34,297 bases of DNA from an uncultured Monoglobus sp. (lineage in GTDB: Bacteria; Bacillota; Clostridia; Monoglobales; Monoglobaceae): positions 1-34,297 of the forward strand of contig CANQKP010000005.1 of NCBI GenBank assembly GCA_947624495.1, in the 5' to 3' direction. The translations under genes were made by a program, and so were the position numbers. The notes beneath the pieces were generated by a model that did no database searches, was not told the origin of the DNA, and saw only the letters and a program-made list of their open reading frames with translations. This document shows, piece after piece, positions 2,954 to 32,140 of this stretch. Positions within the stretch are counted from its first letter, which is position 1, and every line of letters starts with the position of its first letter.

Positions 2954-3201
2954 ATAATTTCATCCTCTGCTTTATCGTATTTGGCGCCGGATCAAAACAA
3001 ATTTCTAAATCACGGCTATTATCTATTATATCACGTTTTCCGCCCTTTTGTTAATTTTGCTTAATTTGTAACAAACCGTTAACCGAATATTAGTATTGCC
3101 TTATTATTATTTTAAAATACGGCTTACCGCGCCGATAATTCCGAAAAGCCCCGTGAATGTCACGCAGCATAACTCAAGCTCTATAAATGAACGCAAAATA
3201 A

Positions 3202-4539: not shown

Positions 4540-4551
4540 AATTAATATCAC

Positions 4552-4640
4552 AGCTGGGGGGACCGCGCGGCGCGGTTGAGATAGGCTGAAAGAGCCTGAC
4601 CCTTTGAACCTGACGGCTAACACCGGCGTAGGAAAGCATA
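4552..4640 (+). ncRNA. TPP riboswitch (THI box)
   Basis: Sequence ctgggggg…ggttGAGAtaggctgaaagagccTGACCCTTTGAACCTGAcggctaacaccggCGTAGGaaagc matches the conserved THI-box core and precedes thiC. Confidence 0.93.
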
Positions 4641-4720
4641 AATAAAACATTATATAATATTAGAATTATTTGTGCTTGTCAGTTTTGGCGGGCGCTATTT
4701 TATTCGGAAGGAGTTTTAAC

Positions 4721-24346: not shown

Positions 24347-25279
24347 TTAACCCAATTGGCTCATCTGTTCGGTGATCCTGCGGTTAAGCTCCTCAGCGGC
24401 GTTATAACCCATTCTCTTCTGTCGGTTGTTCATCGCCGCGACCTCAAAAATCACCGCCAGGTTCCTGCCGGGCTTGACCGGAATTGTCAGCGACGGTATA
24501 TCCAGTCCCAAAATATTCGTGTATTCATCGACAAGACCGAGGCGGTCATACTGCTTGTTCCTGTCCCATGTCTCAAGATGAATTATCATGTCTATGTTCT
24601 CGGAGTCCTTAACTGCGCCCATACCGAATATGTTCTTTACGTCAACAATTCCTATGCCGCGTATCTCGATAAAGTGGCGGATAATATCGGGCGCGACCCC
24701 GATAAGCGTTTTGGATGAGACCTTCTTGATCTCCACCGCGTCGTCGGCAACCAAACGGTGACCGCGCTTTATAAGCTCAACAGCTGTTTCGCTCTTTCCG
24801 CCTCCGCTCTCGCCTACGATAAGCACACCCTGACCGTATATTTCGACCAGAACGCCGTGGCGGGTTATCCTCGGCGCCAATTCAACGCTTAAGTACGCGT
24901 TAAGAGTGCTGGTGAAATACGATGTGGGCTGAGCCGTTCTGAGCACAGGCGTCTCGTATTCCTCGGCAAGCTTAAGCATCTCCGCCGAGGCGTTTCCGTT
25001 TCGGGAAAGAATAACGGCGGAAACATTTTTCTCAAACAACCGCTTAAGGTTGTTGTATCGGACCTCCGCCGAAAGACCTGCCAGATACGTGTTCTCGACC
25101 ATGCCGAAAATCTGGATGCGGCTTGGGTCAAAGTAGTCAAAAAAACCGGTTATCTGAAGTCCGGGACGGTTAACGTCCGCCGTCTCGATCATGATCTCCT
25201 TATCGGGATAGTACAGCTTTTCAAGCTTCATTTCGTGAATAACCTTTTCAAGGCTGACGGTAAAAATTTCATTGTCCAT
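24347..25279 (-). CDS. hprK: HPr kinase/phosphorylase HprK
   Basis: RPGLQITGFFDYFDPSRIQIFGMVE, GVLVEIYGQGVLIVGESGGGKSETAVELIKRGHRLVADDAVEI, IEIRGIGIVDVKNIFGMGAVKD, IPVKPGRNLAVIFEVAAMNNRQKRMGYNAAEELNRRI. Confidence 0.96.
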   Translation of the reverse strand: MDNEIFTVSLEKVIHEMKLEKLYYPDKEIMIETADVNRPGLQITGFFDYFDPSRIQIFGMVENTYLAGLSAEVRYNNLKRLFEKNVSAVILSRNGNASAEMLKLAEEYETPVLRTAQPTSYFTSTLNAYLSVELAPRITRHGVLVEIYGQGVLIVGESGGGKSETAVELIKRGHRLVADDAVEIKKVSSKTLIGVAPDIIRHFIEIRGIGIVDVKNIFGMGAVKDSENIDMIIHLETWDRNKQYDRLGLVDEYTNILGLDIPSLTIPVKPGRNLAVIFEVAAMNNRQKRMGYNAAEELNRRITEQMSQLG

Positions 25280-25741: not shown

Positions 25742-25770
25742 TTGAAAAATTTATTGTATTATGGTATTAT
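25742..25770 (+). promoter_or_regulatory. Promoter of the small hydrophobic peptide gene
   Basis: TTGAAA (25742-25747) - 17 nt - TATTAT (25765-25770) with extended -10 TGG (25762-25764). Confidence 0.55.
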
Positions 25771-25945
25771 ATATTTGGCAGTTATAACTGCAAGTGTGGA
25801 ATATTCCGTGCGGAGAAACATTTAAGCATAAATAAAATATGCCTATCTAAAAGGCAGAGCCAAAACATAAGGACGGTTGGCCGCTTCACTTCCTTTCTAA
25901 ACACTTAATATCGTGTTTAAGACACAAAGAAAGGAGTGGATGCGT

Positions 25946-26029
25946 ATGAAAAATTTGTTTTGCAAAGTTTTTCTTGCATTGCTTGTAATTATCGTAATTT
26001 TTGCGATTTTTGCACAGCCAGTGCAATAG
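25946..26029 (+). CDS. 27-aa hydrophobic peptide, candidate type I toxin
   Basis: MKNLFCKVFLALLVIIVIFAIFAQPVQ*; SD AAAGGAG at 25930-25936, 9 nt from ATG; single predicted TM; RNA structure and antisense RNA signals around it. Not in the supplied ORF track because of its size. Confidence 0.65.
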   Translation: MKNLFCKVFLALLVIIVIFAIFAQPVQ

Positions 26030-26131
26030 AAAAATAACAACCGCCTTAAAGTTTTGACCGACTCGTAAGGCGATTGTTTGATTACCTTTGAAGCGGCCAA
26101 ACCGTTTTTACGCTCTGCCGTTTCTCTTTCT
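26029..26131 (-). ncRNA. Candidate antisense antitoxin RNA (~100 nt) overlapping the 3' UTR of the peptide gene
   Basis: Perfect minus-strand promoter TTGACA (26166-26161) - 17 nt - TATAAT (26143-26138); terminator hairpin at 26077-26037 (complete on the minus strand with one G.U) followed by TTATTTTTC. Confidence 0.6.
26037..26077 (-). terminator. Terminator hairpin of the candidate antisense RNA
   Basis: Arms ACAACCGCCTTA (26037-26048) and TAAGGCGATTGT (26066-26077): C/A mismatch on +, G.U pair on minus; minus-strand U-rich tail TTATTTTTC. Confidence 0.6.
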
Positions 26132-26137
26132 ATGATT

Positions 26138-26166
26138 ATTATATATTAATATTATGCTTTTGTCAA
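26138..26166 (-). promoter_or_regulatory. Consensus sigma-A promoter driving the antisense RNA
   Basis: TTGACA-N17-TATAAT on the minus strand, no minus-strand protein-coding gene immediately downstream. Confidence 0.75.
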
Positions 26167-26539: not shown

Positions 26540-29500
26540 CTATTCTTCGGATAATATACGTGCCTGAATTGAATAACTGCCATCTTCATTTGGTACATAA
26601 AATAATTCTACATTTTTATACTTTAGTATATATTTTATCAATATATCAAAAATGTCTATATTAACATTCGCATAAATAGGATATACTTGTATAAATGCAT
26701 CGCGCATAGTCTGTGCAAGAATATTTTTATATTGTGTTTCATAATCAAGCGCTTTTGATAAAAGCTCTTCCCATTTTTTTATAATGATTTCTTTATTTGC
26801 ATTATCTGCCTTAATATAATTATCTATAATATACAAAAGTGTATTCTCTGTAATAACAATAAGAAATCTCATATTAAGCATACGTTCCATATATGTAAAT
26901 AGTGTAATAATTGGAGTTTTTATATCACATAGAAAATCAATTATTCCAATACTATCAACGTTAAACTCTTTAAGTTGGGTAATAGCCATTGTAGGTATTT
27001 CAGCACCAACAAAGGTTCTTTTTGTGTTTTTGGATAATGATAAAGCATCGTAATCACATATACCAAATGCTCTCGTAAAGAGTTTGTTATTTATACCTCG
27101 AATGCTAAAATCTTGTTTATTGGAAAGGCACTTGATTTGGGAAACATAATTATTTAACTTTACCGCTTCTTGCATAAGAAGTTGTTTATTTTTTTCAGAA
27201 ACTTCATTAATAAACAATTCATCCTCTATAATACCCATAGAAGCTACTGTGTTTTTTCGATTTTTCTTTATTATATTTTCCGTATCATCTTTAATAGTGA
27301 TGTTTATTGATCTTGGTATGACTACATCATTATTGTTGAGGCTATCAATATCAACACCAATTTTATACATAGCAACAAGTGCCGCATATGAAAGAACATA
27401 ATTTTTACCAGCTATATACTTTGAATGATAAAGTTCTCTAAATATTATATCTTTATTATCTAAAAACAATAAAACTGTTTCTGTATAATTTAAATTTGTA
27501 TGCTTAGATAGGGCAAATAATGGTTGGGGAAGACTCGATAAATCCTTATAGGTATCTAGTAAATTAGAAAAAGGATTTTCAGTAATCGTGTTGGCCTTCA
27601 CCCACTTTTTAAATTCATTAATATTTTTTATTTCATTATTTTGTATGTCAAATGAAAATGCTTTAATTTTTCCGTTTTGGATCATTCTTTTATAGCAAAC
27701 ATTTACAAAATAACTATCAAGAGTTGCAATTTTCTCAATAGTGTATTTAGATTTATTTATCTCAACAGAAACACCACATTTTTTCATAAACAATCCTAAT
27801 TCAATCGCCTTGTTTCTAGTTATGTGTGTAGCATTCTCCCAATTATATGGTTCTTGAGGCAAAATATTTTCGTTGTGTATACAATATGTTTCTTCTTCCT
27901 CATTGTTGTTTTCACATACTAATGAAACTACGGTTTCCGTATCTACATATTCTCTATCAATAGATCTGCTATTAACTTCACTATTTTGTTCCTCTAAATG
28001 TATTCCGATGTAATTTCCGCAAAATTCACTAGCATCAGGGGAATTTAATAAGGCTTTTGTTATTAATTTTTTTGCTTTTATTATATCTGTTTGCATAAAA
28101 GTTTGTGCCGCTAATACTAATAGCCTTGGGCTTCCAATAGCAATTGCTGAACTAATTACATCTTCTTTAACCTGTCGTCTATTCTTGATTGAAAGTAAAA
28201 GTATCAAATCAACAATATAGGCATTATCTTTATAATATGGAAAAATATTCATCAAGGTATCCAATGCTTCAATTTCTTTACCTTGTTGCATATTTATTCT
28301 TGATTTTATATAATCCAAGCTATGTCCTACATTATGTAGTACTGTTTCATAAGACTCGATAACTTTATTTGCGTATTGAACTTTTTCATTTTTTAATAAT
28401 ATAGCAGTAAATATCAAAACAGTAATAACAAAAAATGGGTGTACTTCATCTTTATCCATTTTATTAATAATACAATCTAATAATTGGACTTTTTCATCGT
28501 TATTTGAACTATAATATAATGATACCCAATACTCTAGATACTTACCATATGTATCTTTATATTTTGCTATTATTTTAGCGTCTACATCACCTTTTGTTTC
28601 CTTAATTGCACGAACATATGTTAAATAAAGATATAAATCATTATCAATTAAATACTTATTTTCATTTAAAACAGTCATTATATGTTCTTGTGAACTTTGC
28701 GATTTTTTCCAATAATATGGTAATAGGCCAAAATAATCAGATTTAAGACAATATTTTATTATTTCTGTCTCACTTGCCTGATTATTGTCAATCTTACATT
28801 TTAAAACAATTCCTTTTATTTTTATATTTTGAAACAAATATTCAGACATATTGTCCATTATTTTCAAAGCTTCATCAACATTCAAAATTGATAACGCACG
28901 TAATAAAACTATATAATATTGTTCTTGAATTTTTTCTGATGCATATAAATATATATATTCTTCTTTCTTTAACTCTTCAGCAATGTTTGAAAGTTCGTCA
29001 AATAGTGCAGTTTCTTTATCTATTATCGGTTTATTAAGTAATACTAGTTCTTTCTTTTCATATATTAAAAGTTTATCAACAAAAGTTTTATCGTCACCTA
29101 TTATTGTTTCAATGATGCTATCAATATTGTTATAATTCTCCTTTAATATAACGCTAACAACTATTCTTTTTGTTAACCATATTTCATTCTTAAAATCATC
29201 AATTATATGAATTTGATAAATATTAGTATTACTATCCAAAGTTTTTACAAAAAAACTTTCGGCAAAATCATTAATGAGTTTTTTTACTATGCTTTTTAAT
29301 TGTTGGTTTTTTAAGTTACTCATTAATATTGACAATTTTTCTTTGCAGTTCAAATAGAATAACACTAACAATCGTGCAACATCGTCACTAATGAAAGTAT
29401 TAGCTATTTTGGAATGCGCACTTAAAATATCTTCGTTAATTACTTTATAATTGGATAAGATTTCAAGACCAATTTTAATAGCATTTTCTAAACTATCATT

Positions 29501-30139
29501 TTTCCCACTAATAAGCGGAATAATATTATATACCGTCTCAAGATTTCCTCGAAATAATTCTTTCTTTAAAGCATTATACACACGTATAATATCATCTTCG
29601 TGCATTTGTGAACTTTGTGATAATATTCTAACAGCATTTCTTAATTCATCATTGTTGTCAATTAAACTATTCATTTTATCAATTAAAATATTGGTATCTT
29701 GTTTATTAAAATAAATTATATTTCGAGTTTCGTCTGATAAATTAGAGGTGACATAGCAACGTATTTTTTCAAGAAATTGAAATAAAAAGCTTTTTACTAT
29801 CGTTTCATCATAAACTGAATATTGTTTATTATTACGCTCAAGCAAAGTTTTAAACCGATTTAATTCAAATTTTATAAATTCATCTTCTGTCTGCGTTCCT
29901 AAAGTATATCCACAAGCAAACGAAAAAACATGTTGGAGCACAGCATAATGCTTCAAAAAGTTTTCAAATTCACTAGATGTAATAATTGTTCCATCATTAT
30001 ATTTATAAAATTCTTTTAGCCATCTTTTTAATTTGCGCTTGAACTTATATAATTTGAGTTTTGGATAAAATGTATTTTTTTGATCATATATCGCATCTGA
30101 AATTAGATTGATAACGACATTTACAATATTTGAAATCAT
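26540..30139 (-). CDS. Large helical-repeat (TPR-like) protein with possible C-terminal GreAB-C/PIN-like module; candidate conflict/defence protein
   Basis: ~1199 aa; long alpha-helical repeats; C-terminal …ENPFSNLLDTYKDLSSLPQPLFALSKHTNLNYTETVLLFLDN…KNYVLSYAALVAMYKIGVDIDSLN…DYDALSLSKNTKRTFVGAEIPTMAITQLKEFNVDSIGIIDFL… suggests a PIN-TPR-GreABC-like end. ATG 30139 with RBS AAGGAG preferred over GTG 30148. Confidence 0.5.
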   Translation of the reverse strand: MISNIVNVVINLISDAIYDQKNTFYPKLKLYKFKRKLKRWLKEFYKYNDGTIITSSEFENFLKHYAVLQHVFSFACGYTLGTQTEDEFIKFELNRFKTLLERNNKQYSVYDETIVKSFLFQFLEKIRCYVTSNLSDETRNIIYFNKQDTNILIDKMNSLIDNNDELRNAVRILSQSSQMHEDDIIRVYNALKKELFRGNLETVYNIIPLISGKNDSLENAIKIGLEILSNYKVINEDILSAHSKIANTFISDDVARLLVLFYLNCKEKLSILMSNLKNQQLKSIVKKLINDFAESFFVKTLDSNTNIYQIHIIDDFKNEIWLTKRIVVSVILKENYNNIDSIIETIIGDDKTFVDKLLIYEKKELVLLNKPIIDKETALFDELSNIAEELKKEEYIYLYASEKIQEQYYIVLLRALSILNVDEALKIMDNMSEYLFQNIKIKGIVLKCKIDNNQASETEIIKYCLKSDYFGLLPYYWKKSQSSQEHIMTVLNENKYLIDNDLYLYLTYVRAIKETKGDVDAKIIAKYKDTYGKYLEYWVSLYYSSNNDEKVQLLDCIINKMDKDEVHPFFVITVLIFTAILLKNEKVQYANKVIESYETVLHNVGHSLDYIKSRINMQQGKEIEALDTLMNIFPYYKDNAYIVDLILLLSIKNRRQVKEDVISSAIAIGSPRLLVLAAQTFMQTDIIKAKKLITKALLNSPDASEFCGNYIGIHLEEQNSEVNSRSIDREYVDTETVVSLVCENNNEEEETYCIHNENILPQEPYNWENATHITRNKAIELGLFMKKCGVSVEINKSKYTIEKIATLDSYFVNVCYKRMIQNGKIKAFSFDIQNNEIKNINEFKKWVKANTITENPFSNLLDTYKDLSSLPQPLFALSKHTNLNYTETVLLFLDNKDIIFRELYHSKYIAGKNYVLSYAALVAMYKIGVDIDSLNNNDVVIPRSINITIKDDTENIIKKNRKNTVASMGIIEDELFINEVSEKNKQLLMQEAVKLNNYVSQIKCLSNKQDFSIRGINNKLFTRAFGICDYDALSLSKNTKRTFVGAEIPTMAITQLKEFNVDSIGIIDFLCDIKTPIITLFTYMERMLNMRFLIVITENTLLYIIDNYIKADNANKEIIIKKWEELLSKALDYETQYKNILAQTMRDAFIQVYPIYANVNIDIFDILIKYILKYKNVELFYVPNEDGSYSIQARILSEE

Positions 30140-30330
30140 TTTGAACACTCCTTTTAAAGGCTATGTATCATTATAACATATTACCTTTTTATTTCAATGA
30201 TATATAAGAAATAATCTTTGTAATCAAAATTAAACACAATACAAGTTATCCCAAAATGCCCAACACAAAAATATTTCTTAATATATCAACGCTTTATTTT
30301 TTAAGTTGTCAGGATAGTTATATTTATTAC

Positions 30331-32079
30331 TTAATTTTTAAATAAGTTAAATATACTTTCTTTTTTTATGCGTGCCTCATCAAAAATATATGCTTTGTTA
30401 CTCTTTATAATAAATTTTCCATCTTCAAGTATCATTGGTTCGTTACTGTGTACAGCAATTTTGATATCATCAGAAAGGGATATTCGGGTGTCTAAAATAT
30501 ATATATTATTTTCAACTGTAAATATAAAATTAATATCATTTGATAATAAAATTCTACTATCATATTTTTCCTTTGAGATAATATCATTTTCTGATATTAT
30601 GACTCTATCAAAATTAATGGCAGAATATCCCTTTTCAATTACATTTGATAAAAAAGTAATCTGCTCTATATCAATAGCTTCTATAATTACAGGCATATTA
30701 ATGCTAAGGTTATATACATTTTCAATTTGTATTAGTCTTCTTAATATATCTATCTTGGATTTATATTCGTTTATTATATCTTTTGCATGAATGTGGAAAT
30801 CCTCCGTTTCAAAAATTATATTATCATCATTATCTATACATATAATAGATTTAGAATTATATAATGCATAAGTTCGTCTATACAATTCAAAAACTTGCTT
30901 AACGGAATTTTGTTTAGTAGGTATTATACTAAAATTTGATTTGTGAGAAGTATTTTGATTTGATACATTTTCTTCTGTTAATTGCAGATCAAATTTATAG
31001 ATTAAACCCTTATTATCTTCACCTTTCAAAACAATATTAAAGATACCATCTACATAGTTGCTTGTTACTATATACTTGGTAAATGGTATTACTACTGCTC
31101 CCAAATCATTTTCAACACTAAAAGATATATATTTAACACTTGGTTTAATTATCACGTCCATTGCCTGAAAATCGCCATTATATAATGGACAATTTTTTGC
31201 ATATATTGTTGGTAATCGCATTTTCAAACCATTGTAAGAACTATTATTATATTCTTTTAAAACTTTCCCATCATGCGTTTTGATAACGAAAAAACAAACC
31301 TTGAATTTAGCTTCCTCACCCTTCAAACGCAAAAACGATAATAGTTCGTCAAAACTATTGAAATTCGTTTTTCTTAAATCAACTTCTATTTCAGCATCGA
31401 TACAAAAATCTTTTTCATTTTTCTTGGCTGCCAAAGTTATATTATAGTCATCCCATGAAAATGATTTAATTTCTTCTGCTCGAATAGGAGAGCCTAATTG
31501 TTTCTCTAAATTTTCTATTTTTAATGATATCTTATCTATTTCTTGCTCCACATTCGATAAACGAACATCTGATTTAGAAGTACTGGAAGACAATAATTCT
31601 TTAATATCTATTTTGGCGCTATCAATTTGATCTAATATTTCGTCCCGAGTATTCAAAATAATATTTGCCATACGTCTCGTATTATCATCCAAAGGTGTAT
31701 TAAAAGTTATATAGGTGGCAAACATTATATTTTTTAATATATTAGTTAAGCGAGATCTCTCATATGGCGCCGGGAGATCATATGATTCTACAAGTTCATC
31801 AATAAAATTATTTGCAGTTTTAGTATCTATGATATTTCTACTAAAACAACGCCTAATAATTTTATCTTCGTTTTTTAAGATAATTTCACTTACACTATCA
31901 TAAAAAGGCTCATTATTATACTTACTGTGCAAAACCAATTCAAGATTTTTCTTATACTCTTTCAACTGTGAATTCATATTATGTTCGTGAATTTGATCTT
32001 TCAACTTTGCGACAAACTTATTTATTATTTTTTTACCTATAGTTGTTATAATTTTTTCAATCAATAATGCTTCAGTCAT
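30331..32079 (-). CDS. Uncharacterised protein, partner of the helical-repeat protein (helical N-terminus, coiled coil, beta-rich C-terminal half)
   Basis: ~582 aa from ATG 32079 (MTEALLIEKIITTIGKKIINKFVAKL…); coiled-coil VRLSNVEQEIDKISLKIENLEKQLG; no recognised catalytic motif. A promoter overlaps the track's annotated start, so ATG 32079 is preferred over 32121. Confidence 0.55.
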   Translation of the reverse strand: MTEALLIEKIITTIGKKIINKFVAKLKDQIHEHNMNSQLKEYKKNLELVLHSKYNNEPFYDSVSEIILKNEDKIIRRCFSRNIIDTKTANNFIDELVESYDLPAPYERSRLTNILKNIMFATYITFNTPLDDNTRRMANIILNTRDEILDQIDSAKIDIKELLSSSTSKSDVRLSNVEQEIDKISLKIENLEKQLGSPIRAEEIKSFSWDDYNITLAAKKNEKDFCIDAEIEVDLRKTNFNSFDELLSFLRLKGEEAKFKVCFFVIKTHDGKVLKEYNNSSYNGLKMRLPTIYAKNCPLYNGDFQAMDVIIKPSVKYISFSVENDLGAVVIPFTKYIVTSNYVDGIFNIVLKGEDNKGLIYKFDLQLTEENVSNQNTSHKSNFSIIPTKQNSVKQVFELYRRTYALYNSKSIICIDNDDNIIFETEDFHIHAKDIINEYKSKIDILRRLIQIENVYNLSINMPVIIEAIDIEQITFLSNVIEKGYSAINFDRVIISENDIISKEKYDSRILLSNDINFIFTVENNIYILDTRISLSDDIKIAVHSNEPMILEDGKFIIKSNKAYIFDEARIKKESIFNLFKN

Positions 32080-32111
32080 ATTTATCATCATCCAATCTTT
32101 ATTATGGTTTA

Positions 32112-32140
32112 ATGCTACCATATTTCTTGATTATTGTCAA
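32112..32140 (-). promoter_or_regulatory. Promoter of the two-gene cassette
   Basis: Minus strand TTGACA (32140-32135) - 17 nt - TAGCAT (32117-32112), with extended TGG before the -10. Confidence 0.6.

Follow-up and report, generated by a model that had tools for sequence, protein, structure and literature searches.

A probable bsrG/SR4-like type I toxin-antitoxin-like locus with an uncatalogued putative toxin family in Monoglobus

The window analyzed here, a stretch of 34,297 nucleotides of the Monoglobus contig CANQKP010000005.1, carries what is most probably a bsrG/SR4-like type I toxin-antitoxin-like system with an uncatalogued toxin family. The support is computational: a small open reading frame (ORF) is conserved, and so is an antisense RNA (asRNA); the leader and 3' untranslated region (UTR) of the mRNA match as the two strands of a closing helix and coevolve, the Shine-Dalgarno (SD) sequence lies in a hairpin, and the two genes decay asymmetrically. 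A type I layout of the bsrG/SR4 kind had been proposed in the initial annotation on the basis of an extended -10 promoter, a structured 5' UTR, a 27-codon ORF with an SD sequence, and a convergent consensus promoter driving a short RNA over the 3' flank of the ORF. Each of these elements withstood closer analysis, and to them we add the further copies of the locus, an inverted repeat whose arms lie on either side of the ORF, and a hairpin immediately downstream of the stop codon, all of which had gone unnoticed.

Anatomy and copies of the locus

The putative toxin mRNA would start from a promoter at 25742-25770 on the plus strand (TTGAAA-17-TATTAT; 10 of 12 consensus positions), which has a TG two bases 5' of the -10 element and is kept in full-length copies. 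Downstream lie hairpins predicted at the 5' end of the leader (25778-25810, plus strand), likewise kept across copies, and the leader strand of the closing helix (25812-25888, plus strand), with GGAGAAAC at 25812-25819 and GGCAGAG...CGGTTGGCCGCTTCA at 25853-25888. The SD sequence GGAG (25933-25936) is buried in a further predicted hairpin (CACTTCCTTTCT / AGAAAGGAGTG; 25887-25938, plus strand), in which its predicted unpaired fraction is 0.00 to 0.15 and in which a compensatory change from C-G to U-A is seen in six copies. After a 9-nt spacer follows the ORF (25946-26029, plus strand), encoding the putative toxin peptide MKNLFCKVFLALLVIIVIFAIFAQPVQ (27 amino acids plus stop).

On the minus strand, a promoter that agrees with the sigma-70 consensus at all 12 positions (TTGACA-17-TATAAT with a 17-nt spacer; 26166-26138) converges on the ORF and is kept in copies, ORF-less ones included. 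It would drive an asRNA of about 100 nt, the putative antitoxin (26030-26131, minus strand; 5' end near 26131), which is delineated by an alignment of 49 copies, by the covariance model R1 built on it, and by the folding of a minus-strand RNA of about 106 nt (z of -5.46 versus shuffles). The asRNA terminator hairpin (26036-26079, minus strand), which on the plus strand falls within the mRNA 3' UTR, directly follows the ORF stop codon and has a good U-tract in the asRNA direction only (26036-26030 on the minus strand): across 49 copies, the number of T residues per 10 nt after the hairpin averages 6.3 on the minus strand versus 3.2, near background, on the plus strand. No clear intrinsic terminator was found on the plus strand at the locus, so that the 3' end of the mRNA is a guess. 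Beyond the hairpin, the 3' strand of the closing helix (26089-26127, plus strand) is the reverse complement of the leader and ends U-rich. The RNA comprising 5' UTR, ORF, and hairpin also folds more stably than shuffles (z of -4.75). A lone weak promoter site proves little, since a scan returned 13 promoter-like sites versus 6.8 +/- 2.7 in shuffles; both promoters of the locus recur in copies.

An Rfam search of the locus gave no real match at the gathering or a relaxed threshold, and the leader as a riboswitch was dropped for want of Rfam support. The sole Rfam match of the window is a TPP riboswitch (RF00059, 62.6 bits) at 4546-4651 on the plus strand, which precedes thiamine-like ORFs. Another perfect consensus promoter (TTGACA-17-TATAAT; 25342-25314, minus strand) lies upstream of hprK (HPr kinase, 24347-25279), and the neighboring ORFs at 26540-30148 (1202 amino acids) and 30331-32121 (596 amino acids), both on the minus strand, have no Pfam or PADLOC match.

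Searching the window's own genome at the DNA level yielded eight matches that represent six copies (best non-self E value, 1e-106). The five further copies, on contigs C88, C103, C97, C159, and C95, are about 77 to 84% identical over the matched parts, and in the copy alignment the promoters, the leader, and the ORF end are conserved, the asRNA part most of all. DNA matches, some short and weak, occur in 17 of 60 related genomes. With a peptide profile, the family was found in 9 of 12 Monoglobus genomes (the window's included) at 2 to 10 copies each and in two genomes of a sister genus; across the order, the profile gave no convincing match beyond these two genera, a lone match at E=0.003 being disregarded. 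In Monoglobus and the sister genus, 49 copies have an intact peptide. The copies are dispersed within genomes and have sharp borders, and apparent orthologues of the window copy, with common flanks, are present in two other genomes (G010 and G011). Judging from the label "Lapin" on assemblies of related contigs, the source habitat was presumably the rabbit gut.

Some copies depart from this plan or have unusual neighbors. In L012, L013, L056, L059, L062, L063, L066, L070, and L071 the leader is about 90 nt longer and contains a terminator-like AAAAAATCGCnnGCGATTTTTTT, possibly an attenuator; the closing helix is shorter in about nine longer-leader copies. A skipping-rope RNA (Rfam RF02924, 46.5 bits, cutoff 36.7) adjoins the module copy L053 (912-1011, minus strand), and L024 holds a subthreshold match (2972-3046, minus strand) to a plasmid copy-control antisense RNA (RF00236, 32.6 of 45 bits).

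The peptide and the asymmetric decay of the two genes

Alignment of 45 peptides gives the consensus MKxxFFKIxxALLVIIVxFAIFAxxVQ, in which the C-terminal -VQ is conserved. Conservation of the ORF, the lack of which was among the refuting conditions of the initial annotation, is evident from 48 codon-aligned copies: the entropy at codon positions 1, 2, and 3 is 0.77, 0.44, and 0.92 bits, position 2 thus being the least variable, and the median dN/dS is 0.41. The pooled pN/pS of 0.54 amounts to only moderate purifying selection, measured here among paralogues. The charged tail of Fst/Ldr-type peptides, noted earlier as missing from the window peptide, is absent from the consensus of the 45 aligned peptides, as are the PxxxG motif and the tryptophan of that signature. 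Pfam, NCBIfam, PADLOC, and phage/plasmid searches returned no peptide match above cutoff, and homology to the BsrG, TxpA, and BsrE peptides likewise produced no Pfam or NCBIfam match above cutoff. Since library matches are commonly missing for such short peptides, the "new family" that had been suspected from the single sequence is to be read as one that is not in the libraries searched; to that extent, an uncatalogued putative toxin family is supported. A literature search of open-access papers found none describing this peptide/asRNA family.

The asRNA gene is conserved at the sequence level in its promoter, core, and terminator hairpin. Its first approximately 44 nt are nearly invariant among 49 copies, and the terminator hairpin varies with compensatory changes. 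Because the 5' half is near-identical in all copies of a genome, cross-silencing is to be expected; copy-specific control would then rest on the variable hairpin.

Eleven copies have kept the asRNA and lack the ORF. Judged by their flanks, they represent about six independent events (L067/L082, L072-L074, L075, L076/L077/L079, L080, and L081), two of which are each common to three species (L072-L074; L076, L077, and L079). In L076, L077, and L079 the deletion begins at the toxin promoter and reaches the last codons, and intact versions of what appears to be the same locus are present in two other species (L053 and L055). The ORF-less asRNAs L072, L073, and L074 occupy apparently the same place in their three species and are possibly stand-alone or anti-addiction RNAs. 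All three uninterrupted copies without the asRNA (L054, L064, and L078) have a broken or missing ORF. The exception is L023, which has an intact ORF and an asRNA gene that an insertion element at the end of its contig has apparently split. Such asymmetric decay, albeit from few events, fits the pattern expected of a toxin-antitoxin pair.

These observations also bear on the alternative that survives best, one we nevertheless consider unlikely, in which the same anatomy would serve a nontoxic small membrane regulator (MgtS-type-like) whose synthesis is tuned by the asRNA. In favor of this alternative, the peptide amounts to an unremarkable helix that crosses the membrane once and has one or two basic residues at its N-terminal end, its toxicity is something that we infer, and genomes tolerate as many as 10 copies. 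Loss of the ORF where the asRNA is kept, together with broken ORFs where the asRNA has been lost, fits a harmful product better, and the other peptides found in the same RNA frame (see below) look like a variety of small membrane toxins and not like a single regulator.

The closing helix and the proposed mechanism

An inverted repeat flanks the ORF (25853-25888 / 26089-26119, extended by 25812-25819 / 26120-26127). The asRNA is read from the far arm of this repeat, and its 5' half is therefore the same as the leader, not complementary to it; by the same token, pairing is possible between the leader and the 3' UTR of the same mRNA. The predicted duplex between the leader and 26078-26132 has an energy of -47.5 kcal/mol versus -19.0 +/- 3.7 for shuffled sequences (0 of 300 as good). 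When helix and SD hairpin are considered together, 96.3% of cells are paired across 36 copies, versus 37 to 49% with the partners slid. Covariation is modest because the closing helix hardly varies inside the genus, and its helix 1 is imperfect, one pair being unpaired in 15 of the 36 copies.

Evidence of coevolution comes from 49 related modules with different peptides, drawn from about 12 Clostridia families. Cognate leader-3' UTR pairs reach -37.8 kcal/mol versus -26.8 for swapped pairs (permutation p=0.0002), and with one representative per leader class (n=12), the own 3' UTR is the best partner in 11 of 12 (p=0.00005). Complementarity between a leader and its own asRNA shows no clear cognate preference (p=0.29, n=49; p=0.05, n=12). 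What is maintained is thus the pairing of the leader with its own 3' UTR, which speaks for an mRNA that continues past the asRNA terminator hairpin, in agreement with the weak plus-strand U-tract of the Monoglobus copies. A SprA1AS- or par-like mode, in which the 5' half of the asRNA would bind the leader or SD sequence directly, was rejected, because duplex energies did not on average beat those of shuffles (mean z of -0.49) and a cognate preference was missing.

The same data weigh on a kinship with the Fst/par module of pAD1, in which a bidirectional terminator and direct repeats that pair the antisense RNA with the mRNA leader go together with a distinct peptide signature (PMC7472228). Convergent promoters, an SD-burying 5' stem-loop, and an intergenic hairpin are indeed the par layout (PMC7472228). 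In the Monoglobus locus, however, the repeats are inverted, so that leader and asRNA are alike rather than complementary, leader-asRNA complementarity is no better in cognate pairs, and the hairpin has the look of a terminator chiefly in the asRNA direction, the plus-strand U-tract being near background. With neither direct repeats nor the PxxxG, tryptophan, and charged tail of Fst/Ldr peptides, membership of the Fst group is highly improbable.

For the bsrG/SR4-like system that we favor, the following mechanism may be envisaged. Both genes would be transcribed, the leader-rich mRNA extending past the asRNA terminator hairpin and encoding the 27-amino-acid single-pass membrane peptide, the toxin. 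With the SD sequence buried in its local hairpin and the leader paired to the mRNA's own 3' UTR, this mRNA would be poorly translated. The asRNA of about 100 nt, made from the strong convergent promoter, would cover the whole mRNA 3' UTR; in the cell, its 5' half, as a copy of the leader, would displace the leader from the closing helix and go on to a full duplex, opening the mRNA to decay. Upon a shortfall of antitoxin, the peptide would be made and might damage the membrane. The coevolving helix makes the role of the 5'-3' closure testable by compensatory mutations.

Related modules in Clostridia and comparison with known systems

A covariance search for the same arrangement in other Clostridia, suggested in the initial annotation, did turn up related modules. 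Model R1 of the asRNA matched weakly in other families of Clostridia, and the modules found in this way combine the same RNA frame with peptides such as MGNEYIIYFMILLLLLVITIKK, MEYVYIIIFMIVFITLIESIKK, and MWNTILKVIVSIIIFFIIVSIKAI or, closer to the window's, MKNVAFKIVVGLLICAMIFIAFAPIAQ; the distant relatives L142 and L151 surfaced through the RNA model, not the peptide profile. When 292 genomes sampled from the class were searched with a second model, R2, 118 of them had matches at E<=0.01, weaker matches being candidates, and a small hydrophobic ORF adjoins 60 of the 70 R2 matches read by script, which were mostly the best-scoring ones. The leaders differ among modules (GGTTAGCC, GGTTATGCC, GGTTATACC, GGTTTACC, GGTTAGTCC, AGTTGCTTC, and others), and the asRNA of a given locus varies together with its leader. 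Two sister modules have subthreshold Rfam BsrG matches (22.7 bits versus 55).

The window's own genome holds a module of the same RNA frame with a different peptide, MLNTILKIIVTVVIFFIIVSNKAI (L222; G000:C38:8900-10000). In a complete Monoglobus genome without the window's peptide family, five asRNA matches spaced about 330 to 400 nt apart form a tandem array (L198; G008:C1:2361700-2364300), and its peptides, such as MEYVYIIIFMIVFITLIESIKK, are nearly identical.

It seems to us an evenly balanced question whether the locus belongs, as one branch, to a type I-like superfamily that spans the Clostridia and has yet to be described, in which a shared RNA frame (a leader strand copied by the asRNA, a GGTTAGCC-like core, the SD hairpin, and the asRNA terminator) has had unrelated membrane peptides fitted into it and in which near-identical asRNAs within a genome, orphans included, might serve as a common pool of antitoxin. 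A nonautonomous, MITE-like mobile repeat in which the promoters would be incidental and the ORF a product of chance, a reading that the several dispersed copies per genome and their sharp borders might suggest, was rejected as the main reading and is the least probable of all, given the coding signature with its conserved -VQ end, the compensatory changes in the hairpins, the retention of this RNA frame by modules from other families despite unrelated DNA and peptides, and the apparent flank-sharing orthologues of the window copy.

The locus adds putative toxin-peptide and asRNA families for which searches of the Pfam, NCBIfam, Rfam, and PADLOC libraries gave no entry and which occur in several copies within a little-studied gut genus. 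The asRNA model built from the locus also offers a practical route by which unannotated type I systems can be found through their RNA and not their fast-changing peptides.

In hok/Sok and aapA/IsoA, the mRNA is closed and inactive through long-range 5'-3' pairing. The Monoglobus locus shares this idea of inactivation and differs from both in the placement of the antisense gene and in its peptide family. By description, the Clostridioides difficile pairs CD2517.1-RCd8, CD2907.1-RCd9, and CD0956.2-RCd10 are alike in belonging to Clostridia, in their convergent overlapping toxin and antitoxin genes, and in their small, previously unannotated ORFs (PMC6563280).

The closest likeness is to bsrG/SR4 and the other Bacillus subtilis type I systems bsrE/SR5 and txpA/RatA, which also have convergent genes, an asRNA over the 3' UTR of the toxin mRNA, and a small membrane peptide. 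In bsrG RNA, SR4 pairs with the 3' part of the main helix P1, lengthens the stem that buries the SD sequence, and promotes decay (PMC6562991). As a positive control, the bsrG locus of phage SPBc2 (L164) displayed a leader strand, SD hairpin, ORF, and complementary 3' UTR, with a leader-3' UTR energy of -40.3 versus -22.9 for shuffled sequences (0 of 300), and the helix computed here appears to correspond to the published P1 (PMC6562991). Both systems have a long 5'-3' helix whose leader strand is followed directly by a local hairpin that contains the SD sequence. In contrast to bsrG/SR4, the Monoglobus asRNA has its end immediately downstream of the toxin stop codon and apparently lies wholly inside the mRNA, an mRNA terminator is not evident, and many near-identical paralogues are present per genome. 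The Monoglobus peptide has no recognizable similarity to those of bsrG, bsrE, or txpA and falls outside the BsrG family by all tests run; hence, the locus is not filed as a member of that family, even though its working would be bsrG/SR4-like.
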